A model generated the notes under the pieces. That model saw only the letters and a list, made by a program, of their open reading frames with translations, had not been told where the DNA came from and did not search any database. A program made the translations under genes and the position numbers. A stretch of DNA of 64,000 bases from Brachynemurus nebulosus (taxonomy: Eukaryota; Arthropoda; Insecta; Neuroptera; Myrmeleontidae): the NCBI GenBank assembly GCA_035578155.1, contig JAPWDM010000001.1:92021024-92085023 (forward strand), read 5' to 3'. Each line of letters opens with the position of its first letter. Positions within the stretch are counted from its first letter, which is position 1. Positions 2,985-48,242 of the stretch are shown piece after piece.

Positions 2985-4740
<1,756 letters not shown>

Positions 4741-4756
4741 TGCAGATGCTGCGACA

Positions 4757-5076
4757 GGGGTATTTTAATATTTAAAAATAAAACACAAAGGCAATTGGCG
4801 GATAAGCATGGATAGAAATGCCTTCGTACGAATTGTGTTGGCTTTGTCCCTGTTAACTGCTATCGGCACAAAATTGAAATTTACTGAGATTCAGCCCTTA
4901 AAAACTTAAAATTTTTTTTTAAAGCCCCGATCAACCGGACACTCATCATCAGTTTTGAAACCACGAAAATTACAAATCGCTTGTGGACTTTCAATTATAT
5001 TTCGCTTGTAGACACTCAATACCGAAGATGAAAGGAAAAATTCGACTTCCGTGATGGGGCTCTGCTGCTCACGGCG
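4757..5076 (+). mobile_element. HINE family 3' fragment
   Basis: It contains only the last 320 bp of the family, including AAAATTCGACT-like sequence (one change), the CCGTGA...TCACGG hairpin and the CGGCG end followed by a T-run. Everything upstream has been lost. Confidence 0.7.
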
Positions 5077-5480
5077 TTTTTTTCTAATCTACTATTATTT
5101 TTTTGAAATTAACTCTAATTTTACGGCCCTGGCACAATAATCCCACTCTCCTGGGTTGCTAACACTGTCACCAACTTATGGTTTTTGGTAAAATTATATT
5201 TTCGGAAATTATTACTAAATTTCTGAACTTGTACAGGGGATCTATCTAAAACCGAAAACCATGGCAAGTGATTTATGGGACAAAAAAGTTGTGAACCACT
5301 GATATGCACAGTGATAATACATCATATACATACAATACATAAACCACATAAACATTGAACTTATTTACATACTTTTAGTTTACCGTTCAAAACAGCATAA
5401 ACATTAGAAATCATAGAAATATAAAGAAATTTCGAGAATGTTCCTTTTATAACGATTTTACTACATATGTACATATGCAT
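5077..5480. other. Upstream region of NUPR1, no gene seen
   Basis: AT-rich sequence between the repeat fragment and the NUPR1 promoter. The 62-codon minus-strand frame at 5,121-5,309 has no recognisable similarity. Confidence 0.4.
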
Positions 5481-5704: not shown

Positions 5705-5914
5705 ATGTCGGACGAAGCCCATTTTGATGAATACGATCACTACAACTTTGAAGTTGATAAAATCATGCATGCTGGACATAGTGGAAAACAACGAAGCAAA
5801 AGGGAAGTCGAAGAAAATACAAATCATTTCGATCCATCGGGACACACTAGGAAAATTTTAACAAAATTAATGAATACAGAACAAAATAAGAAGGCTGAAG
5901 GTAGTAAGCACTAA
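5705..5914 (+). CDS. NUPR1: Nuclear protein 1 (NUPR1/p8) homologue
   Basis: Complete 69-residue protein in a single exon. The family is a small, basic, largely disordered stress-induced chromatin and transcription cofactor related in character to HMG proteins. The sequence shows the acidic/aromatic N-terminal part HFDEYDHYNF and the family core HSGKQRSKREVEENTNHF followed by DPSGHTRKILTKLMNTEQNK, where the Lys/Arg-rich stretch is the nuclear localisation and DNA-binding region. The length matches insect homologues, which end soon after the LMN motif. The start at 5,705 is the first ATG after the predicted start site, in a good context (AAAAATG). A TATA box upstream and AATAAA signals at 6,277 and 6,292 complete a compact gene. 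No frame damage is seen. Neighbours on both sides are repeats, so there is no functional clustering. Confidence 0.93.
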   Translation: MSDEAHFDEYDHYNFEVDKIMHAGHSGKQRSKREVEENTNHFDPSGHTRKILTKLMNTEQNKKAEGSKH

Positions 5915-5975
5915 AAAGTAAAATTACATGTAGATAAGACAATTTCGCTATGATTTCAAATGGTTTTGTGACTAA

Positions 5976-6173
5976 TTTTGCGAGTTGGATAATGAAAATT
6001 TTTGTAACATATTGGAACTATCTGGAAAGTGTCAGCACAGATTGAATAATGCGCAGTTACAGTTACATATTCAAGGTGACAGATCAATCAACATCAACAA
6101 CTTATTAACCGAATATAGGTTAATAACAGCCACAATAAAAAGAATTCAAGTACAGAAAATTATTTGTCTGTGA
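5976..6173 (+). other. Open frame in the NUPR1 3' region, unidentified
   Basis: A frame of about 65 codons opens just after a TAA and has no ATG near its beginning. It reads through LDNENFCNILELSGKCQHRL and further polar sequence before a stop. It lies between the NUPR1 stop and the poly(A) signals, so it is probably 3' UTR. Its composition (Leu, Gln, Asn, few Lys runs) looks more protein-like than the surrounding AT-rich frames, so a second coding segment cannot be excluded. Confidence 0.2.
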
Positions 6174-7332: not shown

Positions 7333-9067
7333 TAGGGTTGCCACCTTTTTTTAAGGCAAAAAAAGTATTTTTCGGTTTTTAAGAAAAAAATAAAAGTACA
7401 GTTAGTAAAAAAAAAAAGTACGCATTAAATTTTTATATTATTTATTTTTCCATAAATATTTTTTATTGCTTTTAGCTATGTTAATTAGATATTTGTCTTC
7501 CTTAAAAACATTTAAGGCATTCTTACAATCTATATCTAAATTTATAAATATCAGTAGTTCATTTTTTATTAAGTTAAGGGACGCCTTGTTTCTTTCCACA
7601 CGCCATTTGATATTCATTATCGAAAATATTCTTTCTATGAATGCCGAAGTAGCAGGAATAGATAAAAGATAGGCTATTATTTTATACGTATTTGGAAAAT
7701 CGTCGCAACGTTCAAAAATATGCTGCCATTTTTTCGCAGTAGGCTTATCTTTAAAATCTGCACAATTAATTAATTTTGCAAGCAGCTCATTTATTATGTT
7801 TACTTCAGAATACAAATCATCCATGTTAATACATAGCTTTTGGAGATTTAGATTCTCAATAATGTATACAAAATCTTCATATTTAACTAAAGATTTTAGA
7901 TTTAAGTTATTAAGTGAAAACAGCCAATTGGAATGACTCATATTGAACCACTTTTCTAAGTATTCTATGGCTTTATTTATGAACAATAAAAAATTTTCAT
8001 AAATTTTCTTTGTAAGTTCAGGTGAAGACGTTTCAAGTTTTTTTTAACAATTTCCCGGTTTCGAAGCCAAAAAATAAATCGATTTTTCTCTGTGTCAATT
8101 CTTTTTTTAAATTATTCATGATATTAAAAATATCTAAAATAGTAACCAAGTTACCCTCTAAGTATATTATAGTTTTATTAAACACATTTAAAATGTGGCT
8201 ACTGAAGTGTAAGTAAATTTCAACTGTGTCATCAGGGTTCTTCAGCATTAATAAATTTTGCAAAAGCATTGGGCAATCTTCCTCCAAATTCACAAAATAA
8301 TTTCTAATAACTTTCCAATTTAATAATATCGTATCAACACATGGTAAAAGAGAAAGCCATCTAGTTCCTATATGACGTTTAAGTTCTCGAAATTGCCCAT
8401 CAACTATTTCCGTTGATTTTATTAATTCCTCTCTTCGTACAGCCGAATGAGCAAAATGGCTGTAAATTTTCAGTATAATATTTTCAACATCACAAGATAA
8501 AAAATTCATAGCGTGTTTTACACAGTTGTGCGAATTTTCCTCAATTTTTCTCTTTTTAGGTGTATTACACTCAGAATTTACGATATCATCATTATTAACT
8601 AAATTATTTTGTTCCATTTTAAAAACAAAATTATATATAAGTTGTACGAAAATAATATTATCAAGGCTTGATAAGTGTTATATGATGTTAAGCCGACCAG
8701 CCAAAACACACAACAAATAACATTTTACGTTAAATTAAAATAATCACATGGCGGAACGTAAAATTCAAATATATCACATGCGCGTCTGGCATTTGAATTC
8801 TATGATACTAACTGTTGCCAATTTATGCAACCAAGTACAACCATTTTTGGTTTTGGCGCTAACTTTGAACAACAAATCAAGTGACAACAAGATACTTAAA
8901 CATTATAATTTAAAATAAGAGAGTTAAAAATGGGATGAATGAGTGACAATTTGACATACGTAAAAAAAAAAGTATTTTAGCGTACTTTTCTTCTTTTAAA
9001 AAGTACAAAGTACGTTTGTCTAAATAAAAGTACAATACTTTTTAAAAAAGTACGGGTGGCAACCCTG
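7333..9067 (-). mobile_element. hAT transposon, decayed
   Basis: Ends TAGGGTTGCCACC (7,333) and, reverse-complemented, CAGGGTTGCCACC (ending at 9,067). Both are flanked by the perfect 8-bp duplication GCTATTGA (7,325-7,332 and 9,068-9,075), the hallmark of hAT insertion. Length is 1,735 bp. Inside, on the minus strand, are the remains of the transposase. About 440 bp between the right end and the first coding segment hold no readable N-terminus. Confidence 0.93.
7438..8617 (-). pseudogene. hAT transposase, truncated and frame-broken
   Basis: Two adjacent minus-strand frames (8,617-8,033, then 7,986-7,438) together make about 375 residues of a transposase normally 600 or more. The first has the hAT central segment HCVKHA-like ...HFAHSAVRREELIK...GTRWLSLLPCVDTIL. 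The second has the C-terminal dimerisation region IAYLLSIPATSAFIERIFS (near residues 105-123) followed by RVERNKASLNL. The 46-bp gap between them carries a stop or frame change, and the N-terminal BED zinc finger and first catalytic Asp are absent. The element cannot make an active enzyme from this copy. The terminal repeats and target duplication are still clean, so decay of the coding part preceded or outpaced that of the ends. Confidence 0.88.
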
Positions 9068-26958: not shown

Positions 26959-26969
26959 ACAAGATAGTG

Positions 26970-28222
26970 ACGTGTGTGAAGTTAGCCCCGCACTTTTTGA
27001 AATTTATGTTTTTCTTAATTGTGCTACATTGTGCTACGTTTGTGCCAATTTGTGCCGCATACCACAACTCGAAATTACCAAGCACCTCGAAGAAAACGCC
27101 AAAAAACAAATTTTTTGCCAGCCCCGCACTTTTCAAATTTTCGATTTTTTTTAGTTGTGCTACTTTGTGCTACGTCTGTGCTGCGTTGTGCCGCAAACGG
27201 CAACTCAAAATAATCAAAGACTTTGAAAAAAAATCAAAAAACAAATTTTTAGCCAGCCCCGCACTTTTGGAAATTTGCAATTTTTTCAGTTGCATTGCAC
27301 TATACAAGGTTTGTGCCGCGTTGTGCCGTCGAAATAATTTTAAAATTGTATTCCATTTGCATAAAAAAAAATTTTTGTTTTCTTAAAAAACCGCCACAGA
27401 TTATTAAGAATTGGCCTGTGCTGTGCAATCTGTTAATCTGAGGAAATTTTGTCATTTGGGAAAATTATTGTGCTGGTCTAGCACAGTCCGGCACAATAAA
27501 AAAAAGATTCGAAAACCCCAAAATTTTAATTTCCCCCCACTCCTAATCCATCAATTTTTAATGAATTTGAAAGTAGATGTTAATTTTTATGGATGAACTT
27601 TATAGAGCTTAAGCAGCATAACTCAGCACAACTTACAGAATTCCGTTATCGACCGCTGTTCAGAAGTTACACGGATTTAAAATTTTTTTATTCATAAAAA
27701 ACCCTTACAAATTTTTTTATATTTTGGCCTGTGCTGTACTATCTATTAATCTGAGGAAATTTTGTCCTTTGGCAAGATTATTATGTTCGTCTAGCACAAT
27801 CCGGCACAATCAAAAAAGATTCGAAAATAGCAAAATTTTAATTTCCCCCCACTCTTAATCCATCAATTTTTAATGAATTTGAAAGTAGATGTTAATTTTT
27901 ATGGATGAACTTTATAGAGCTTAAGCAGCATAACTCAGCACAACTTACAGAATTCCGTTATCGACCGCTGTTCAGAAGTTACACGGATTTAAAATTATTT
28001 TATAAAAAAAAAACCGTTACTGACTTATATAAAGCTGGCTACACACGTAACTGCAAGCTTGACAAGCATGCATGATCAAGCTTTTTGTACAAGCATGCAC
28101 AAATTCCCTTCGCCACCACACGGTTCGAGCATGCTTGTACAAACGCCCGTTTGTTCTTAAAAAACGTCGAGTTCGGAAAACGATGCGCTCGCTTTAGCTG
28201 CTTTTGTTCTTATTTATATATA

Positions 28223-28257
<35 letters not shown>

Positions 28258-28310
28258 GAAATAAGTAATTAAATTGGCCGAAGAGCTTCTTGGGGTATCT
28301 TGATCGTCCA
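26970..28310 (+). repeat. Left inverted arm of the Foldback-type element
   Basis: Three units of 135-136 bp start GCCCCGCACTTTT at 26,985, 27,121 and 27,256. Each has runs of TTGTGCTAC / TTGTGCCGC. Two units of about 315 bp follow (27,400-27,690 and 27,720-28,010), each with GGCCTGTGCTGT, TCCGGCACAAT and TTACAGAATTCCGTTATCGA. The last 290 bp belong to a nested MADF-bearing element. Because the 135-bp unit is divisible by three, it creates long repeated plus-strand frames rich in Cys/Phe; these are artefacts. Confidence 0.88.
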
Positions 28311-28888
28311 AAAAATGAAACAAATGGTAATACCATTAATTTCATTTGTTCCAACGCCAGAACGGCGTGAGTCTTCAACTTTTTTCCTCTCTCTTCTGTA
28401 GTTTGTTCTAAAGGAGTTTATTTTTTTATAACGGTTTCCTTGTCGGCGTTTACATCAACTAATTTATATTGTTGCAGTAATGTATCGTACGCTGCATCTA
28501 TCTCTATTGTGGTACTCCTTCAATTTGATACGCCAAAGATATTCCTCAATTTGAATAAAGTCTACAAGTAATCCGCGGTTTAATTTTTTTAAGTTTCTAG
28601 ACATGATGTTTTAACAATCAGATTGACATCAACATAGGACGATGAAACAAACAGATATCATATAAGATTGATTTTGGCTTGTAAAATCTTGCACATTGGT
28701 ACACGCAATCTGCTTTGCTTGCCAATTTAACGTGTCCAAGCATGCATAATTGAAATTCAATTAATCTTCAAGCCGCTTGTACAATCAAAATGATTGTACA
28801 AAGTTATCATATAAACGCTCAAGTATGCTTGTACAAGAAGCTTGATTATGCATGCTTGTCAAGCTTGCAGTTACGTGTATATCTGCCT
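28033..28888. mobile_element. Nested inverted-repeat element carrying a MADF-domain fragment
   Basis: The left end (ACACGTAACTGCAAGCTTGA, near 28,043) and right end (its complement near 28,858) pair through GCATGCATGATCAAGCTT and TTGTACAAGCATGC. In the right arm of the large element only one end and the MADF C-terminal part are present. MADF/Myb-like second proteins are typical of PIF/Harbinger transposons, so a Harbinger-derived origin is plausible; no transposase is present. Confidence 0.7.
28262..28604 (-). pseudogene. MADF-domain protein fragment
   Basis: From the ATG at 28,604 it reads MSRNLKKLNRGLLVDFIQIE, EEYLWRIKLKEYHNRD, then a frame slip, DAAYDTLLQQYKLVDVNADK, INSFRTNYRRERKKVEDSRR, SGVGTNEI, a second slip, and FHFLDDQDTPRSSSANLI. 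The order Leu/Trp (ELWxxxxxxYxNRD), helix 2 with Arg-rich FRTNYRRE, and the C-terminal FLxDQDTPR is the MADF (Myb/SANT-like DNA-binding) domain. At least two indels break it, so it makes no full protein. A shorter inverted copy (FLDDQDTPRSSSANLI) is at 36,565-36,615. Confidence 0.75.
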
Positions 28889-30264
28889 TAAGATTATAAT
28901 ATAACTTTAATTAGTGAAAAAAAAGTTATATATACAGGGTACAAAGTAAACAACTCTGGAGCATTTCAGATTTAAATCGGGGCAGATGTTAAAAATCACA
29001 CTGATTCCACGATTTTTTCAAATGTTTCTGAATGCGAATATGACTAAATTATGCCTTGATTAAATTTTAAAATGAAAAATTTCTGAACAATCTTTAAAAA
29101 ATTAAATACTATATTTATATACTTGGTAAAACGTTTATTTTTATTGTTAGATTGTATTAGAGTTCACATATATTAGGGTTCCTTAGTGACTAGAGCTTTC
29201 CATATTGCACGGGCCGGACGTGACGTATCCTGGCATAAATAATACTTTATCTTGACACTAGAGTCGCTAGTCATTACAATTTATAACAAATATAAATAAT
29301 TATTCAAAAAATAAAAAATAAAAGGATTACAGGAAATTTAAGTAAAATATAAACAAACCGACCTGCCCAGGTCACATATTTATAACATTTATGAGTAATT
29401 AATGAAAAGAAACGAAGTTTGTCTATTTCCGTTGTTTCTTTTCAAGTATGCTTTCATGCAGAGTTACGTCAGCAAATAATGTTGGGTTTAGTTATGTTTA
29501 AATTTTATTTAAAATTTCATCTTTTACAATTTATTTATTTATATTTTTTTTTTTTTATTAAAATTGAAATGTTTTGTATTATCACAATTTAAATTTCCAT
29601 ATACTTACTACTAGAATGTAAAAAAAAAAAAAAATATTTAATATTTATTTGAGTTATATGCATATTCTCAATTCTTGAAATAAATTTTTATTCCCTATTT
29701 TATTTTTTACGAACTCTGATTTAATGCATGTGAAAATTTTTTACACAATTGTTACTTTATACTTATATTATTACTAAATATTGAAAGTATGTGTGACTCT
29801 TATAAAAGAATACTGCCCGTAATTTTTTCAAATGTTTTGCTTTTCAGGTTTATTTTTTGCATTTTTTAACTTTTAAAGTTACCTATGAAAATTACTCGAA
29901 ATAATTATAATTGAGTGCTTTCAGTAAGTGCTAGTGCCTGCAATTTTTCAGATTTTTTTTTATCAATATTCAAAAATTTCAGGTGGACAAAAATTGTCGG
30001 CGAAAACGACCACTTTGAAGAAGTTAAATATTTTGCAAACGAGACTTTAAAATTACTTCGGGAAAGTACCTCAAGATACTAAAAAAATTATTTTGCCTCA
30101 TATTAATTGAGACTTGCATCTATAGCACGTACTTGCAAAATTCTATTTTGGTAGGCCGAAATATGTGGCAATTATGGGGGTATGTGACAGACGGACGGAC
30201 AGACATGACCGATTCATAAGGTTTCAAAAAATTTTCCTCGGAACCCTAAAAAAGTGCAAATTAT
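28889..30264. other. No gene seen; repeat fragments only
   Basis: AT-rich DNA inside the large element. A segment at 30,150-30,250 with GACAGACGGACGGACAGAC and GGAACCCTAAAA is a common insect retroelement-tail motif. TATACAGGGTACAAAGTAAAC near 28,931 resembles ends of other small elements. Confidence 0.4.
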
Positions 30265-30867
30265 TTAGACTGAATTCTTTTCACTTGTAAGGTAAATAAT
30301 TAAATGTGGTTTTATTTTGCAATGCTTTGGTTTGATTTTAGTATTTTTAATTAAATCATTAAACTCTAGCCATTGAGATCTTTGATACGAATACCCTACG
30401 TAGTGCCCATTTTCAGAATCACCATATCGTGCTACTATGCCCGCTAAAAGAAATAAATTAGCACCAACTTGAATCTCGGGCGAAAATTCTTCAAGAGAAT
30501 GTTCTTTTTGTAGATCATCTATTCCATCGCATTCGATAAATATTTGTTTTTCATATTTTATATTTCTGTTCATAAGCTGGTTACAGCAGGTGGATCTGTT
30601 AGTTGGCATACCTTCTGATATAGCAGCAGCTAGCTCACAATACCCATACTTAACAATAATATCAACATTAAGGGGAACTAATACAGATTGGCGCATGATG
30701 ATTGTAGAACATACGATACAACTTTTTATTTCTGTGTAACTAGGATTTTGTTTGAAAATATATTGTACAACATTACCTATGCTTGAGAAACAATCGACAG
30801 TTATATTATTTCCATGGAAGAAGGAGAGGTATATAATATTGTAAAGGAAGGAGCATTTCCCAAAATA
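30265..30867 (-). CDS. C19 (USP-like) deubiquitinase, zinc-finger and His-box exon of the transposon
   Basis: The minus frame is open from 30,900 to the stop at 30,265; a plausible acceptor TTGATCAG lies just before 30,867. It reads YFGKCSFLYNIIYLSFFHGN, a C-x2-C pair (SCIVCS), then PLNVDIIVKYGYCELAAAI, a second Cys cluster (TCCNQ), and LFLLAGIVARYGDSENGHYV followed by GYSYQRSQWLEFNDL. GHYVGY (His codon 30,403-30,405) and the Asn/Asp of EFNDL are the catalytic His and acid of ubiquitin-specific proteases, and the Cys pairs resemble their zinc finger. The matching Cys box is at the C-terminus of the transposase frame, 1.1 kb upstream. Together they would make one fused protein that removes ubiquitin or a related modifier. 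The simplest splice (donor ACTG^GTAATT near 31,999) is one base out of phase with this acceptor, so another exon, another site, or decay must be assumed. Confidence 0.7.
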   Translation of the reverse strand, partial: YFGKCSFLYNIIYLSFFHGNNITVDCFSSIGNVVQYIFKQNPSYTEIKSCIVCSTIIMRQSVLVPLNVDIIVKYGYCELAAAISEGMPTNRSTCCNQLMNRNIKYEKQIFIECDGIDDLQKEHSLEEFSPEIQVGANLFLLAGIVARYGDSENGHYVGYSYQRSQWLEFNDLIKNTKIKPKHCKIKPHLIIYLTSEKNSV

Positions 30868-30900
30868 CTGATCAACATAATTGAATATTAAACGTGCGTA

Positions 30901-31960
30901 TTATGAATGACGTCATTTTGTAAATATACAGTAACGGTTTTAATTTAATTAAAACATTGCCATTGCTTTTAAAACAATACATTTAGTATATTTTTCTTAT
31001 AGTTGTGATTTCTATATAAAAACATAAACAATTAATTAATTATTTTTAATATCTGTTCTATTTAATTCAATAATCAACTCCTTAAGAATGCTGTTCGACT
31101 ATTTTATCAGTTAATTTTTCGAATTCTTAATTGTCTACTAAATTATTGTATTTTTTAACGGTGCTTAAAGAATATTATAAATTACCATAAACTGAAAACA
31201 AAAATTGCTCAAATTAATCGATTATTTACAATTTATAACAATTTTTGTAAAAAGATTACGTTTTGGTTTATAATTTTCCATCACTAATAAGACATATCTT
31301 TTTGATAAAAGTAGACACAAACATAAATAAAACTATACAGTTATTAAATTATCATTTTATTAATAAATAAATAAATACAAACAAAATACATAATCTTGAA
31401 GTTAAATTTTTATATGCTCATTAATTTTACATATAAGACGCTACTGAAATGAAGGGTCAATCTAACCTATATTTTAATTTTTACATAATTTTATTTTTTA
31501 CAATATTTTTAAAATTTTTGTCGTCATTATCACATATTTTAACTAAAAAACGAATTCCTTATTTACGTAGAATGATTCCTTTTTCGATATTTCCTTTACT
31601 TTGTGTAATGTCAAAATTGGTATTTTTCCGCTTATTATAAACCTGTTTTGTTAAATGAAAAATGTAGAAAAATTAACAAATTTTCCCTAGAAATGGTTGC
31701 ATTTATTGATCAATACAATATTTACTTACCCAAATATTATATTTACGGTGTATTACGTTTACTAATTTTATTTTAAATTTAATTTTTTGTAGGACTGGAT
31801 GTTTAGTGCTTATTTGCACGTGTTATAGTGTATATTTACTCTTTTGTTTTTTATTTTTTGTGGTTCATTCAAAAGAATCTACGTATTCATTCTAACATAT
31901 CATATTAAACTATATCTTGTCCCTCTCTTAAGAAATAGTCTCCATCCATATTCTTCTATA
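30901..31960 (-). other. Putative intron between transposase and protease exons
   Basis: Very AT-rich, with no coding signal on the minus strand. Position and composition fit an intron, but its ends are not resolved by phase. Confidence 0.45.
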
Positions 31961-34582
31961 TCAATGATTATTTCTGTCTATGTGTGTTTTAAAATTACCA
32001 GTGTTCATTAATAGTTCCGCCCTTAGTTTATAAGTATGTTGATTGCAACCACTTTTTAAAAAATATTTCACAAATTTCATAATGTTAGTGTCAGATGTTT
32101 CAATACTATTCTTATAATATTCGTTAATGCATGCACCTGCAATTATAGACACGATACTGTCAAATCCACATGTATTGACAACAACAACTCTTTTTTGATT
32201 GATAGTTAAAAAGGGACACAGGCTACCATTTTGTAGATTTGCGACTCCTATGCGTGTTCCCGTAAGATTTATATCCCAGTCCGGACAATTGTCCAAATAT
32301 GTTTTTCTTCTTTTCGTTGATGTTGCATTTTTGTTTCTCCAGTTATGTTCTAAATTTAATTCATTTATTTCATCTGATACAATGCTACTTACTTCAGAAG
32401 GAGATCCTATTCTAGTATTTGTCGGAGAATTAGAAGGATCGGTTCTAATGTTTTTTGACTGGTTAACCATAACTTCTTCTTTAAGTGGAACATTGGGCTT
32501 ATAATTACTCATCGAGCTACTTATCACTTCACTTTTTGGAAATGGTTCATTGTTCTTGGCAGAAAGCGGGGATTTATGTGATGACATGGCTAACAGTGAT
32601 CTACCTGCGAAAGAGTTTAAGTGAATTGTTACAAATTTGTCTACTCTCATCGGAGGTTTTTGATTCTGTAACAATATATGCTTAACATCTTTCATTTCAG
32701 ATTCTACAGATGATGAGCTGGCATTTATTTCTCCATAACCAAATATTGGAATCATTACGCCCGAATATAATGGAAAATATGGAAGAAATGTTTTTAACTT
32801 TTGACTTAATTGTGGAATGTAATACGGGTTTATCAGGTCACATTTTATTTTTGTTTCTGCTAGCGTTCTCCCACAGTCTTCGATGAGATTATTAGACCAT
32901 AATGCAATATTGCAATTTGTTATTTCTACATCGAAATCTTCATCCTGACTATTTTCGTTATCCCTTTCAAACAGTGATTCCTCTTTAAGACCTTTTATGC
33001 AGTTCGTTATAAATAGACGAGCGGATTCCGATGGTAAATCATTTCCATCACCGTCTTTTCCAATTTCTTCACTGAGGGATAATAAAACAATACTTCTGGC
33101 CAGTTTAACGAAATCAGAAAAATTCGTCTGCTTTGTTAATAAAGCCATAGCACGTATGTAAAATTTTTTTACTTTTGGATTTAATTGTGAAAATAATTTC
33201 CATTTTGTCACCATATTCATATAGTGGCAAATATCAAGTCTTATAAAGCACTTAGGTGGTTCGACATAGTGTACGGATAAAATTAAATCAAAACAGACTG
33301 ATAAATAGTGCTTTAAATTTGAATATTGTCCAAAAGCTTTTGCAATAGCATTAAGTAATGCCATATCAAAGTCGCATACAACTGATCGGGGAATTGGGAA
33401 ATTTTTCTTACGTGTCGATCCAATACGTAAAAATTCACTTAGCCAGTATTGAATTGCGTTGACATTTTGCACAGCGCTCAACATTTGAAGCACTGGCATT
33501 TTGTAGCTAGGCGTGTTCGTAACAGCTTGATATAAATATATATGCGGCGATAATTCTCCATTAGGTAATTTAAATTTTTTTATTAACGAACCAGTTGCGT
33601 CAATACAGATAGTATCGTGGTACTGGAGATAAACAGCCATTTGTTCAGGTGTCCAATAGTGAACAAAGAAAGGGTCAAAACCTATAGAATGAATAGATCC
33701 TGCGTGATTTGTATACTTCATATTTTGAAGGTTACTATACGCACAGGATCCTCTGATTTGTAAATTAATATCTCGCCGTTCTTGTTTTGCCTTTCTCAGT
33801 GTACTAGCCTTGTATAAATGTGGTGGTTCCGAATCGTACATTTTCATTAGTTTTGTAGCATGTTGTCTTCGCCAAGTTGTTGCCGATAACGAACCCATTG
33901 CGAGACATTCTGATATCTCTACCCTTTTATGTCCACTCAGGGGACGTTTGCTTATATGTTCTATGTCTCCGTTAAAATTTGTTACCTGACATTCCATTTG
34001 AATATTAATATTTTTTATAGGTTTATTGATAATTTTTCCGACAAAATCTGATTGGCAGTCTGGACATTTTCCGTTAATAGTAGCATAAATGCCAGTTTCC
34101 GAGATTTTGCAACGTTTAAACCGAAATGCGCAAGGCAACTTTGTAGTTTCATATATTAGTTCAAAAATTATGTTCGTCCATCTGCGGCGTTGTAATGTGC
34201 TATAACTTCTTTGTACCTTACTATTAGATTTATAAATTACTGATTCGCAGTCTATATCATGCCATGTTTTTACAGGTATATTAAGATAAAAGTCTATACT
34301 TTTTTCCGCTGTTGACAAATCAAACGATTCATCAGTAGTAATATCAAATTTAGTATTATTAGGTTTTTTTAAGTTATGATAGTTTAGAACTTTATCATAT
34401 AGACCATGTCGATTTTGCAGCAAAATGGTATAAATGTATTTCGGCGATATCTTATTCTCCAATAAAGAGCTTATTTCTTTATATATAACAGATTTTGGAT
34501 TAACCACTTTTTCATTTTCATCCAAAACACACCTATACTTTGCACATAACAATATTTTTTCTAATGTGTCCATTGGCGCCAT
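31961..34582 (-). CDS. NOF/MULE-type transposase fused to a USP-like Cys box
   Basis: An intact frame of 873 codons from the ATG at 34,582. Residues 1-65 are a helical N-terminus (LENKISPKYIYTILLQNRHG). Residues 151-176 hold Cys pairs including CPDC, probably zinc-binding. The MULE DDE core follows: CIDATG (Asp328), SVVCDFD (Asp404/406), then IRLDICHYMN with the Mutator-type C/D..H motif (450-453), and SSSVESEM with Glu627 or Glu629 as third acid, followed by MRVDKFVTIHLNSFAG. Residues 660-770 are a polar Ser-rich linker. Residues 773-850 (TGTRIGVANLQNGSLCPFL, VVVVNTCGFDSIVSIIAG) match the N-terminal Cys box of C19 ubiquitin proteases, with Cys805 as nucleophile. The stop follows soon after a good splice donor, so the protein probably continues in the exon at 30,867. 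The DDE triad and Cys box are all intact. The transposase would cut and rejoin the element ends in the nucleus. Confidence 0.87.
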   Translation of the reverse strand: MAPMDTLEKILLCAKYRCVLDENEKVVNPKSVIYKEISSLLENKISPKYIYTILLQNRHGLYDKVLNYHNLKKPNNTKFDITTDESFDLSTAEKSIDFYLNIPVKTWHDIDCESVIYKSNSKVQRSYSTLQRRRWTNIIFELIYETTKLPCAFRFKRCKISETGIYATINGKCPDCQSDFVGKIINKPIKNINIQMECQVTNFNGDIEHISKRPLSGHKRVEISECLAMGSLSATTWRRQHATKLMKMYDSEPPHLYKASTLRKAKQERRDINLQIRGSCAYSNLQNMKYTNHAGSIHSIGFDPFFVHYWTPEQMAVYLQYHDTICIDATGSLIKKFKLPNGELSPHIYLYQAVTNTPSYKMPVLQMLSAVQNVNAIQYWLSEFLRIGSTRKKNFPIPRSVVCDFDMALLNAIAKAFGQYSNLKHYLSVCFDLILSVHYVEPPKCFIRLDICHYMNMVTKWKLFSQLNPKVKKFYIRAMALLTKQTNFSDFVKLARSIVLLSLSEEIGKDGDGNDLPSESARLFITNCIKGLKEESLFERDNENSQDEDFDVEITNCNIALWSNNLIEDCGRTLAETKIKCDLINPYYIPQLSQKLKTFLPYFPLYSGVMIPIFGYGEINASSSSVESEMKDVKHILLQNQKPPMRVDKFVTIHLNSFAGRSLLAMSSHKSPLSAKNNEPFPKSEVISSSMSNYKPNVPLKEEVMVNQSKNIRTDPSNSPTNTRIGSPSEVSSIVSDEINELNLEHNWRNKNATSTKRRKTYLDNCPDWDINLTGTRIGVANLQNGSLCPFLTINQKRVVVVNTCGFDSIVSIIAGACINEYYKNSIETSDTNIMKFVKYFLKSGCNQHTYKLRAELLMNTGNFKTHIDRNNH

Positions 34583-35174
34583 GCTTAATGGCGTATTTCC
34601 TAAAATAAATGATCCGGGTGTAGATAACTAACTATATTTTTTTTTAATTTTAAAACTTATAGAAATCTTACCAACTGAATGAGGTACGAAAAAATGAAGA
34701 ATTCACTTTGAATTTTCCACAAACTTCCCTCTTTGTAAAGTATTTCGAACAGTAAATATGTATTAACACTGATATTAATGTTTACAAACTGCACTAACAT
34801 ACCGCAAAATAAAGTTTTAATAGCAACTAAATAAAGTTTTAATAGCAACAATTAATTCTTGAAAAATATGTTAACAGTTTTAAAATAAATGCCTAGTTTT
34901 GGTTCTGTTTAGAAAGATAACAAACAATTCAAAAAATTCTTAAAACTAATTGTATTTTCCAAATAATTTTAAACTGTAAATAAAGCCTCGGTACGACCCA
35001 AACGTATGTTCGAACCATTTTTTGCCTTAGTTACAAAACTAAAAGTAATTAATTATATTATGTTACTTAACATAAGAATAAAACGTAACAAATTAACCAA
35101 AAGACCTACAAATTTTTTTTGTACAAAACCAATATCTACTTGATTTTGAAATAATTATTTGCATAGCTTTAAGC
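34583..35174. other. Spacer between the two divergent transposase copies
   Basis: AT-rich and non-coding. Homology between the two copies begins abruptly at TAAGCATGG, a few bases before each start codon, so the spacer itself is not an inverted repeat. Promoter activity in either direction is possible but not visible. Confidence 0.4.
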
Positions 35175-36570
35175 ATGGGGCAAATGAACGCATTAGAAAA
35201 AATATTGTTATATGCAAAATATACACCACAAATCCAATTTTACGTAGTGGTCGGTGCAAATTTAAGGGGAAGTACGTAAAATCGGAAGATCAGGGGCGTC
35301 GGTAAACTTTTGTTTTGGGGGGTTGGTAAATATTATTATCTGAATTTATTTAAAACAATATTACTTAAGAGACAATTTACACTTAAAATTCGGTTGTGTA
35401 CACAAAGGAAATCGAATGTTATACTAATGAATACGAGTGACAACTTTTAGAAAACTGTCCAAAAATCAACTTCACTATCGCATTCATCAGCGTAAAAGAT
35501 GCCAAATAGCGGAAGGTGACAAAAATTCTAGAATATTCTACTCGTGAACTGGCAAAGATACCAAAAAATCGATTGTACCATTTAATTGGTCATCGAATAA
35601 AAGACGGAATAGCACATTTTCATAAATGTTCTAGAATATTCTATTCGTCAGATAGCAAAAATTGTTTGTTAAAATCGGACATTTGGTTTACATTAGTTTA
35701 ATTTCGGTTGGACAATTAAGTGGTGCAGTAGATTTTCCAATACCTTTGTTAGTTGACAAATAGAATATTCTAGAACATTTCTCAAAATATGTTATTTGGT
35801 CTCTTTTTTGGTACTCAATTCAACGGCGACGTTTGTTTTTGAATATCTTTGCTAGTTGACGAATAGAATATTCCAGAACATTTGTCGAAATGTGTAATTT
35901 GACCTCTTTTTCAATGGACAATTAAATAGTACAATTGATTTTTCAATATCTTTGCTAGTTGACAGATAGAACATTCTAGAATTTTTGTCAAACTACACTG
36001 TTTAATCTCATTTTTAATGACCAATTCAACGGTGAAGTTTGTTTTTTGATATCTCTGCTAGTTGATGATTAGAATATTCTAGAATTTTACGTTACTCATT
36101 TTGCATTTGCATTTTGCATATTACGTATACAGAATATGTGCATATATATCTGCAGTGAAATTTTAAAATTTTTAACAGTTACGAAACCCTCAGACAATAT
36201 TACCTACGGCCCTGACTCTGGCTTGGTACATAAATTTTCACCAACACAGACAAACAACAACTGTATCTGTGAGAGGAGAACCCCACTAAATCGCTGACGT
36301 CACTACGTAAAATCGGATTACGTACCATTGGATGGCCACTGTAGGTGTGTTTTGCATGAAAATGGAAAAGTGGTTAATCCAAAATCTGTTATACATATAT
36401 AAAGAGTTAAGCCCTTTATTGGAGAATAAGATATCTCCGAAATATATTTATACCATTTTGCTACAAAATAGACACGGTATATATGACAAAGCTCCCGTTT
36501 CCCAATTTTCCAATTCTCAATTCTCCGATTCCCTATTTTCCAATTCCCCGATCAGTTATATGCGACTTTC
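35175..36570 (+). pseudogene. Second, inverted transposase copy: N-terminus only, interrupted and internally deleted
   Basis: Part 1 (35,175-35,222) encodes MGQMNALEKILLYAKY, matching residues 1-16 of the intact gene. A TA-flanked element follows (35,224-36,341). Part 2 (36,344-36,490) continues RCVLHENGKVVNPKSVI, has a short in-frame stop region, then LLENKISPKYIYTILLQNRH and GIYDKA. It then jumps to PRSVICDF (36,555), matching residues 398-405, and joins directly to a MADF fragment (FLDDQDTPR). About 330 residues are deleted between GIYDK and PIPRS, and everything after VICDF is gone. No functional protein is possible. Confidence 0.88.
35224..36341. mobile_element. TA-flanked MITE with heat-shock-element-like array, copy 1
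   Basis: Flanked by TA (35,222-35,223; 36,342-36,343). Removing it plus one TA restores AAA-TAT-AGG-TGT, exactly the KYRC codons of the intact transposase. Imperfect inverted ends are CACCACAAATCCAATTTTAC and CAGTGGCCATCCAATGGTAC. A TA duplication points to the Tc1/mariner group. The middle repeats a unit of about 105 bp, each holding the palindrome AGAATATTCTAGAA or close variants at 35,526, 35,629, 35,763, 35,866, 35,969 and 36,072. The 1.22-kb copy 2 is at 46,988-48,209. Confidence 0.87.
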
Positions 36571-37910
36571 GCTTTTTGGACGATCAAGATACCCCAAGAA
36601 GCTCTTCGGCCAATCTAATAACTTATTTTATTTTATTTTATTCATTTATTTTTTTTTTTTTATTTAAATAAGAACAAAAGCAGCTAAAGCAAGTGCATCG
36701 ACATCCGAACTCGACGTTTTTTAAGAACAAACGGGCGTTTGTGCAAGCATGCTCGAACCGTGTGGTGGCGAAAAGAATTTGTGCATGCTTGTACAAAAAG
36801 CTTGATCATGCATGCTCGTCAAGCTTGCAGTTACGTGTGTAGCCAGCTTTATATAAGTCAGTAACGGTTTTTCTTTTTAAATAAAATAATTTTAAATCCG
36901 TGTAACTTCTGAACAGCGATCGATAACGGAATTCTGTAAGTTGTGCTGAGTTGTGCTGCTTAAGCTCTATAAAGTTCGTCCATAAAAATTAACATTTAGC
37001 TTCAAATTCGTTAAAAATTGATGGATTAGGAGTGGGGGAAATTAAAATTTTGCTATTTTCGAATCTTTTTTGATTGTGCCGGATTGTGCTAGACGAACGT
37101 AATAATTTAGCCAAATGACAAAATTTCCTCAGATTAATAGATAGTACAGCACAGGCCAAAATATAAAAAATTTATAACGGTTTTTTATGAATAAAAAAAT
37201 TTTAAATCCGTGTAACTTCTGAACAGCGTTCGATAACGGAATTCTGTAAGTTGTGCTGAGTTGTGCTGCTTAAGCTCTATAAAATTCATCCATAAAAATT
37301 AACATTTAGCTTCAAATTCGTTAAAAATTGATGTATTAGGAGTGGGGAGAAATTAAAATTTTGGCATTTGCGAATCTTTTTTGATTGTGCCGGACTGTGC
37401 TAGACGAGCACAATAATTTTTCCAAATGACAAAATTTCCTCAGATTAATAGATTGCACAGCACAGGCCGATTCTTAATAATCTGTGGCGGTTTTCTAAGA
37501 AAAGAAAAATTTTTTTATCCAAATGGAATATAATTTTAAAATTATTTCGACGGCACAACGCGGCACAAACGTTGTATAGTGCAATGCAATTGAAAAAATT
37601 GCAAATTTCCAAAAGTGCGGGGCTGGCTAAAAATTAGTTTTTTGATTTTTTTTTCGAAGTCCTTGATTATTTTGAGTTGCCGTTTGCGGCACAACGGGGC
37701 ACAAACGTAGCACAAAGCAGCACAACTAAAAAAAATTGAAAATTTAAAAAGTGCGGGGCTGGCAAAAAATTTGTTTTTTGGCATTTTCTTCTAAGTGCTT
37801 GGTAATTTCGAGTTGTGGTTTGCGGCACAAATTGGCACAAACGTAGCACAATGTAGCACAATTAAGAAAAATATAAATTTCAAAAAGTGCGGGGCTAACT
37901 TCACACACAC
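36570..37910 (-). repeat. Right inverted arm of the Foldback-type element
   Basis: Near-identical inverted copy of 26,970-28,310, including both classes of subrepeat and one end of the nested MADF element (CAAGCTTGCAGTTACGTGTG near 36,818). It ends CTTCACACACAC before the target duplication. The minus-strand frames rich in Cys/Phe here are the mirror of those in the left arm. Confidence 0.88.
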
Positions 37911-38159
37911 AAGATAGTGTCTTCCCGTACCCGTGACGTTGTTCACGCGAAACTTTGAGTAGTTTCTTTTTCCAATCTGTAGTTTATTGCAACACAAAAT
38001 GCATTAAATTGTCTCCAAATTGAGAATTGTGTATTTATTGTATTTTTCGGTACACAGTTAGCAACATTTTTTTTTTTTTTTTATTTCAAATTCAGAAAAA
38101 TTTCCAAACTACTATTTACACATTTTGTTACTATAGTTATAAAATTTTTTTATGAAATA

Positions 38160-46832: not shown

Positions 46833-46985
46833 AAAAATTTTTCAATTTTTTCAATCCAAGTTACCAAACTATCCATATTCATACGCTTTTGTAAAAAATC
46901 CTTCTAAATCTGTTTTATTAATCATTATTTAATTTTAAACAAATTTTGCACGTTTAACTCACACGCTAACAATTAAGAATTAAGA
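46833..46985. other. Short AT-rich spacer
   Basis: Unique-looking sequence between HINE copy B and the TA-flanked MITE. No features. Confidence 0.4.
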
Positions 46986-46987
46986 TA

Positions 46988-48209
46988 CACCACAAATCCA
47001 ATTTTACGTAGTGGTCGGTACAAATTTAAGGGGAAGTACGTAAAATCGGAAGATCAGGGGCGTCGGTAAACTTTTGTTTTGGGGGGTTGGTAAATATTAT
47101 TTATCTGAATTTATTTAAAACAATATTATCTTAAGAGACAATTTACACCTAAAATTCGGTTGTGTAGACAAAGGAAATCGAATGTTATACTAATGAATAT
47201 GAGTGACGACTTTTAGAAAACTGTCGAAAAATCAACTTCACTATCGCATTCATCAGCGTAAAAGACGCCAAATAGCGGAAGCTGACAAAAATTCTAGAAT
47301 ATTCAACTTTTGAACTGGCAAAGATACCAAAAAACAAATTTCACTATTGAATTGCGCACTAAAAATTAGATTAAGCAGCGCATTTTGACAAAAATTCTAG
47401 AATGTTCTATTCGTCAACTAACAAAGATATCAAAAAATCGATTGCACCATTTAATTGGTCATCGAATAAAAGACGAAATAGCACATTTTCATAAATGTTC
47501 TAGAATATTCTATTTGTCAGATAGCAAAAATTGTTTGTCAAAATCGGACATTTGGTTTACATTAGTTTAATTTCGGTTGGACAATTAAGTGGTGCAGTAG
47601 ATTTTCCAATATCTTTGTTAGTTGACAAATAGAATATTCTAGAACATTTCTCAAAATATGTTATTTGGTTTCTTTTTTGGTACCCAATTCAATGGCGACG
47701 TTTGTTTTTGAATATCTTTGCTAGTTGACGAATAGAATATTCCAGAACATTGGTCAAAATGTGTAATTCGACCTCTTTTTCAATGGACAATTAAATGGTA
47801 CAATTGATTTTTCAATATCTTTGCTAATTGACAAATAGACCATTCTAGAATTTTTGTCAAACTACACTGTTTAATCTCATTTTTAATGACCAATTCAACA
47901 GTGAAGTTTATTTTTTGATATCTCTGCTAGTTGATGATTAGAATATTCTAGAATTTTACGTTACTCATTTTGCATTTGCATTTTGCATATTACGTATGCA
48001 GAATATGTGCATATATATCTGCAGTGAAATTTTAAAATTTTTAAAGGCTACGAGACCCTCAGACAATATTACCTACGGCCCTGACTCTGGCTTGGTACAT
48101 AAATTTTCACCAACACAGACAAACATCAACATATCTGTGAGAGGAGAACCCCACTAAATCGCTGACGTCACTACGTAAAATCGGAGTACGTACCATTGGA
48201 TGGCCACTG
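46988..48209. mobile_element. TA-flanked MITE with heat-shock-element-like array, copy 2
   Basis: TA at 46,986-46,987 and 48,210-48,211. It is 1,222 bp and 104 bp longer than copy 1 because of one extra repeat unit near 47,300-47,410. Seven palindromic sites of the TTCTAGAATATTC / AGAATATTCTAGAA type lie at about 105-bp spacing (from 47,292 to 47,950). Confidence 0.87.
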
Positions 48210-48242
48210 TAAGAAGAAACTAAAAATTATTTCAAAATTTTT

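Follow-up and report, generated by a model that had tools for sequence, protein, structure and literature searches.

The 64,000-nucleotide stretch analyzed here (the window; positions 92,021,024-92,085,023 of contig C1 in the 960 Mb, 138-contig genome G000 of Brachynemurus nebulosus) carries an element that is almost certainly an animal Mutator/IS256-like DNA transposon, with long arms made of sub-repeats and 9-bp target-site duplications, coding for a DDE transposase that continues through a linker into a USP (C19) domain that has a finger of four Cys and whose Cys-His-Asp/Asn set is intact. An initial annotation of this DNA had proposed a foldback Mutator-like element (MULE) whose transposase is fused to a C19 protease by the splicing of two exons; its substance holds, but its gene structure does not. 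The fusion is borne out by relatives that hold both parts in one open reading frame (ORF), by profile and fold comparisons, and by the recurrence of the same order elsewhere. The coordinates of all features are collected in Table 1.

Transposase and USP domain

The frame reported as an intact 873-codon transposase runs on the minus strand from an ATG at 34,582 to a stop at 31,961, and all of its proposed motifs were found: DATG (D328), CDFD (D404), ICHYMN and VESEM (E627). A search with this frame retrieved 36 proteins, including one from the ant Temnothorax, and a profile search raised the total to 49. The named relatives also include the aphids Semiaphis, Aphis and Macrosiphum and the wasp Cotesia glomerata; of all the named ones, the Cotesia protein alone extends as far as the His/Asp box. 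Two traits of Mutator/MULE (IS256-like) elements were present, a DDE core of the RNase H fold and a target duplication of ~9 bp combined with inverted repeats. The duplication was seen in seven of the eight copies examined, the left end of the eighth, B76, not being located in the stretch examined. The Pfam MULE signature reached at best 17.5 bits against a cut-off of 27.6, with 3 of 36 members matching at E <= 1; the matches in L013 and P0049 were weak as well, and the Pfam scan of the window protein gave no MULE match. Foldseek returned nothing at E <= 0.001 for the transposase model, and ISCth4 came first only after VIA-align re-ranking.

The motif NTCGFDSI was found, as annotated, close to the end of the 873-codon frame. 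Also as annotated, an open stretch with two Cys clusters and a His/Asp box lies downstream on the same strand (minus, 30,900-30,265; CIVC, CC and GHYVGYSYQRSQWLEFNDL). Scored with a USP profile to which the window contributed no sequence, the first half reached 72.7 bits (8e-23) and the second 119 bits (6e-37), so the resemblance to C19 proteases exceeds chance. The Pfam UCH model gave 21.4 bits for the second half, below the cut-off of 23.9. It matched 6 of 36 members at E <= 1, and P0008 passed the cut-off with 24.5 bits and has a weak MULE match in the same protein. The predicted structure has the USP fold, and profile and fold comparisons both retrieve USPs. In an alignment of 34 rows, the order Cys, His, Asp/Asn was kept in every row with a letter at the position (33/33, 19/19 and 18/18); the last position is the one that we take to be catalytic from USP7 numbering. 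These residues and a Trp are invariant in the rows with a letter, in domains that are 25-36% identical to the reference row. The four finger positions are Cys in 30/30, 26/28, 27/27 and 27/27 rows. Zinc binding by the finger is not certain, because the second pair is adjacent (CC) in the window and in some relatives. The domain resembles cellular USPs (USP30, USP46/12, Ubp8, USP14/Ubp6) in its fold, the order of its catalytic residues and the Cys finger. It differs from them in sequence (14-21% identity), in its length of ~270 residues, in its attachment to a transposase and in lacking the Gly-Leu-x-Asn (GLxN) lead found in many USP Cys boxes.

The two parts of the domain are not exons of a spliced gene, as had been supposed, but halves of a single ORF separated by 1,154 bp (30,813-31,966). 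This segment is missing from the sister copies A58 and A67, whose transposase part is 99% identical, and their frames read through the joint; the alignment between A58 and the window breaks exactly at the segment with an 8-bp overlap. Therefore, the segment is a nested insertion and not an intron. Removing it together with one copy of the 8-bp repeat GAAATAAT gives a continuous reading that matches the relatives across the joint. In P0003, P0004, P0009 and P0012, the four closest relatives containing the second stretch, homology begins at residue 31 of that stretch, the point where the insertion meets it; with some more distant relatives, local alignments start earlier. The terminal repeats of the insertion were no better than those of shuffled sequences (18 of 200 reached the score). 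The splice named in the initial annotation, 31,999 to 30,867, shifts the frame, and translation would then stop at codon 882. Among 164 tested GT-AG pairs in frame with the second half, two reach the natural stop (30,265-30,267), for example 31,999 to 30,776, which speaks for a working spliced gene; but both would alter the conserved domain by deleting conserved residues or adding foreign ones. Given the 8-bp duplication around the insertion, its absence from A58 and A67 and the stop at codon 882, the spliced gene was rejected as very improbable. Judged from its reading frame, the window copy in its present state is unable to encode the fusion protein, another element having landed in its USP part.

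Copies, relatives and age of the fusion

Nine of the 36 proteins (P0006, P0007, P0008, P0010, P0015, P0016, P0018, P0019 and P0022) contain transposase, linker and USP domain in a single uninterrupted ORF. Within the same genome, the search listed 62 matches and 20 loci were read. Sixteen of these 20 showed a match to the USP profile at E < 1e-20 in an ORF of at least 200 codons, and four (L005, L013, L014 and L015) hold the transposase and a complete USP domain in one frame. L006, L007, L009 and L011, which are overlapping pieces of two decayed copies, had no USP-profile match, and L009 and L011 have no ORF of at least 200 codons. The order proposed for the window, MULE transposase followed by C19 domain within inverted arms, recurs at other loci of this genome.

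The fusion is intact in recent copies of two families. Three members of family B (B34, B58 and B74) share a frame of 1,099 codons (1,056 when counted from the first ATG), and the three proteins differ at a single amino acid. Their arms measure ~3 kb or more and consist of ~150-bp repeats, and their target duplications are GATGATAAT, TGATTTTAT and TTCTCCAAG, the first two of which fit more than one register; B76 is a fourth, broken copy. Family C (C74) has a frame of 1,026 codons, 1,015 from the ATG, arms of ~0.94 kb and the duplication GCGTAGAAT.

Transposase and USP trees were built from 19 rows selected for the presence of both parts (16 of the 49 proteins plus L005, L013 and the window, the latter with the second USP half only); P0003 and P0043, which also have both parts, were left out. 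The two trees have 14 of 16 splits in common, compared with a mean of 0.3 and a maximum of 3 after shuffling labels, and no splits with support above 0.9 are in conflict. Because the trees agree, the simplest reading is that one fusion took place before the families parted and would have been retained since. An unrelated host USP fragment lying by coincidence beside a transposase could be argued from this single broken copy and nothing beyond it. The nine single-ORF relatives of the first search, the four fused loci in this genome and the concordant trees leave that idea almost no probability, and it was rejected. With the USP region of P0008 as the sole query, a search returned P0008 and P0007 only (785 candidates); it missed known relatives and so says little about stand-alone or host USPs. 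In viral contigs, 21 stretches fit a pattern and none was confirmed as a relative.

Function of the domain

The domain is probably an active isopeptidase for ubiquitin or a ubiquitin-like protein. Acting in cis, it would trim ubiquitin off the transposase and off the transpososome at the ends of the DNA, and the deubiquitinated complex would then be neither extracted nor degraded before strand transfer or insertion. Since the domain is on the same chain, its first substrates would be the transposase and whatever is bound at the transposon ends. As a choice among the possible targets this one is tentative, and we would put it somewhat below an even chance. The fusion together with the cis deubiquitination model, taken as the explanation of the whole, seems to us evenly balanced. 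Nearly as much can be said for a broader proposal, in which animal foldback MULEs of one entire old clade (window family, B, C, the Cotesia relative and the single-ORF proteins, plus partial aphid proteins) would have, as standard machinery, a transposase containing an active USP.

Several observations weigh against the proposed role. None of the three best copies of the window family is intact for the fusion. A58 (contig C58) and A67 (contig C67), which correspond to L021-L024, are alike over the element alone (~7.95 kb) in the 19-kb stretches compared and have their own target duplications (TGTTTTTGT and TTAAGCAAA). They share two lesions: codon 769, counted from the ATG, is a TAG that precedes the USP domain, and the frame shifts immediately ahead of the His box. 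As these copies lie at distinct sites with the same lesions, the lesions predate the last move, barring gene conversion. The elements therefore moved after losing the full frame, perhaps with help in trans or because the USP part is dispensable, which cuts against a need for it in cis. P0034 and P0048 have long tails without a recognized USP domain, and the GLxN lead is absent, as noted. The decayed copy L008 (ORF 3817-4770, plus strand; outside the 34-row alignment) reads NTSAFD, with the catalytic Cys replaced by Ser. The dN/dS ratio among near-identical copies is uninformative, there being too few changes. Over 78 pairs, mean identity was 30.6% in the USP part, little more than the 28.7% in the linker, and 36.5% in the transposase core, in a comparison by forced global alignment that is crude and biased by method and was not counted as support. 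The main sign of constraint is that the catalytic residues are retained.

Some of these observations suit a ubiquitin-binding or structural module for which catalysis is not needed: copies without a complete USP frame have moved (A58 and A67), L008 has lost the Cys, and the main frame of another family, L016-L019, holds no more than the first 166 of 278 USP model positions. Such a module is improbable, as Cys, His, Trp and Asp/Asn are kept in all rows with a letter at 25-36% identity. If the fused domain is catalytic, its target may lie elsewhere. Deubiquitination of histones or repair factors where the element is excised or inserted, which might ease access or steer the break toward repair in the element's favor, is possible but on the unlikely side. 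The fold search lists Ubp8 of SAGA, including some entries on ubiquitinated nucleosomes; however, USPs generally score alike, and fold similarity says nothing about substrate. A DNA-repair role was proposed for the ULP1 and OTU domains of transposable elements (Bao et al. 2010, PMC2836005), but the Pfam scan of the window protein found no histone- or chromatin-reading part. It is unlikely that the domain is directed at host defense, stabilizing or rewiring silencing factors of the piRNA or heterochromatin pathway in the germ line. This idea draws solely on an analogy with transposon-derived VTD deubiquitinases expressed in the male germ line, for which the authors of the study speculate that they overcome limits on transposon inheritance (PMC9741609). 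No sequence feature singles out a host factor, and a domain covalently joined to the transposase would more naturally act on the transposase itself.

Comparison with known systems

By anatomy, the nearest described neighbor is Rehavkus, compared here by description only and not by sequence; NOF and Rehavkus presumably form one group. PMC6446971 describes Rehavkus, known from Repbase only, as having a 9-bp duplication, terminal inverted repeats of 26-400 bp, a minisatellite before the 3′ repeat and a PHD finger. The 9-bp duplication, long inverted repeats, arthropod hosts and MULE-like DDE transposase are common to both, as is a minisatellite near the 3′ end, the arms of the window element containing tandem sub-repeats. 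In contrast to the PHD finger listed for Rehavkus, none was found by the Pfam scan of the window protein, and a C19 domain is not mentioned for Rehavkus in the portion of PMC6446971 examined.

In ULP1 proteases the catalytic Cys follows the His, and Kaonashi is a ULP1-carrying MULE of plants. Mutator elements with ULP1 occur in hydra, lancelet and plants (PMC2836005) and, like the element in the window, are MULEs that also encode a ubiquitin or ubiquitin-like protease. In the window element the Cys comes first and the fold is that of a USP; ULP1 belongs to another protease family, which argues for a separate capture. A ULP1 (C48) identity was rejected on the order Cys before His and on the lack of a C48 match in either window half, in a Pfam scan whose filters drop most matches above E 0.1. 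Ginger1 carries OTU or ULP1, and Helitrons carry OTU (PMC2836005). In Ginger1 the protease is likewise at the C terminus of a DDE transposase, but this transposase resembles Gypsy integrases and the protease is OTU or ULP1 instead of C19. The same paper mentions, in one sentence, the Trichomonas protein XP_001314237.1, in which peptidase C19 is attached to a DNA transposase (transposase_11, IS5-like); it belongs to another transposase superfamily and to a protist, and is a single example rather than a described transposon family. The VTD deubiquitinases of Helentrons are also transposon-borne, with activity reported by the authors (PMC9741609), but they are of another deubiquitinase class, with an Asp-x-His motif, in a rolling-circle element. 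A VTD identity was rejected, since the window reads ENGHYVG with the Asp/Asn after the His.

The initial annotation was aware of no described MULE with a C19 domain, and none was met in the papers seen, to which Repbase reports, supplements and most subscription papers did not belong; the novelty needs qualifying for transposases at large, as the Trichomonas protein of another superfamily was mentioned in 2010. The words ubiquitin, peptidase and protease are absent from the main text of a 2026 MULE survey of 4,268 arthropod genomes (PMC13359780) and from the available text of the 2019 survey PMC6446971, and the portions seen of PMC10318531, PMC3169594, PMC8277862 and PMC6431247 contain no MULE-C19 case.

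The element joins a known class, transposons with their own ubiquitin-family protease, and its USP-DDE version is a new variant. On several occasions, unrelated transposons have acquired proteases for ubiquitin and SUMO (ULP1, OTU, VTD). The USP-DDE fusion, co-inherited and intact in young copies, is a further independent case, with protease and transposase in a single chain. That transposition needs local ubiquitin removal is a long-standing guess, and the single chain makes it testable by one Cys mutation. If an active USP proves to be clade-wide, these elements would form a further independent class of transposon-recruited ubiquitin protease, and ubiquitin removal at the transpososome would be a needed step of the transposition cycle. 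The USP domain is also a marker for a little-described group of animal MULEs.

Structure of the element and neighboring sequences

The inverted arms said to enclose the element are present and are 84-94% complementary over colinear ungapped segments. A direct repeat abuts both ends, as announced; it is 11 bp long here and 9 to 12 bp in other copies. The termini of the three families look alike by eye (window family A, CGTGTGTGAAGTTAGCCCCGC; C, ATGTCCGTAAACTTAGCCCTGCC; B, ACCTCTGTGAACCTGGCACCCCAC), all with GTGAAGTTAGCCCC-like ends, and the window transposase shares 31% identity with the family B transposase and 42% with the family C one. Because the termini are alike despite this low identity, the ends of A, B and C may be recognized in the same way.

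Table 1. Positions of the features of the element within the window.
Feature	Position	Strand	Basis or remark
Left target-site duplication ACAAGATAGTG	26959..26969		Identical sequence at opposite end; ~9 bp, lengthened by chance
Left inverted arm, with tandem sub-repeats inside	26972..28320		Self-comparison of window (I2, I11, I9, I4, I8, I6, I3, I15; D1, D4)
Second half of USP (C19) domain: Cys pairs, GHY, Asp/Asn box	30265..30810	-	Pfam UCH and USP profile (scores in text)
Asn at catalytic Asp position	30358..30360	-	Asp in sister copies A58 and A67
Catalytic His of GHY	30403..30405	-	
Second finger Cys pair CC	30583..30588	-	
First finger Cys pair CIVC	30709..30720	-	
8-bp direct repeat GAAATAAT, one flank of insertion	30805..30812		
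1,154-bp nested insertion splitting the fused ORF	30813..31966		8-bp repeats; not present in A58 or A67
873-codon open frame: transposase, linker, first part of USP domain	31961..34582	-	ORF call, sister-copy alignment
8-bp direct repeat GAAATAAT, other flank of insertion	31967..31974		
First part of USP domain with Cys box	31982..32236	-	USP profile (score in text)
Catalytic Cys C805 of NTCGFDS	32168..32170	-	
DDE catalytic Glu E627	32702..32704	-	
DDE second Asp D404	33371..33373	-	
DDE first Asp D328	33599..33601	-	
Inverted stub of transposase 5′ coding sequence, piece	35169..35223	+	Self-comparison (I23)
Second nested insertion	35224..36342		Absent in A58; 96% relative at 47,386-48,211
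Inverted transposase stub, remainder	36343..36494	+	Self-comparison (I16, I20)
Right inverted arm	36567..37908		Self-comparison of window
Right target-site duplication	37909..37919		Pairs with left ACAAGATAGTG

Upstream of the gene, elements of families A and B repeat part of their coding sequence in inverted orientation. In the window, 34,387-34,588 pairs with the two stub pieces of Table 1; the corresponding pairs are 5,011-5,212 and 5,792-5,993 in the joined stretch of A58, and 621-835 and 2,905-3,119 in L013. A transcript spanning the coding sequence and the inverted stub could fold into a hairpin, for which Mu killer offers a parallel. The insertion that splits the stub in the window is missing from A58, with a 2-bp overlap at the joint, and contains internal repeats of ~103 bp as well as inverted repeats. 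A relative of it lies ~11 kb away, at about 46,982-48,211, with 96% identity over the best 827 bp.

In the L016-L019 family, the main frame has 1,062 codons in L016-L018, and in L017 a piece of the later USP part was found on the opposite strand. P0023 and P0027 contain a Znf_SCAND3 finger (Pfam), which in P0023 separates the transposase core from the USP domain, and a Cys-rich stretch in the L016 ORF resembles it by eye. Elsewhere in the window, a remnant of a hAT transposase occupies 7,438-8,043 on the minus strand (Pfam Dimer_Tnp_hAT, 31.9 bits).

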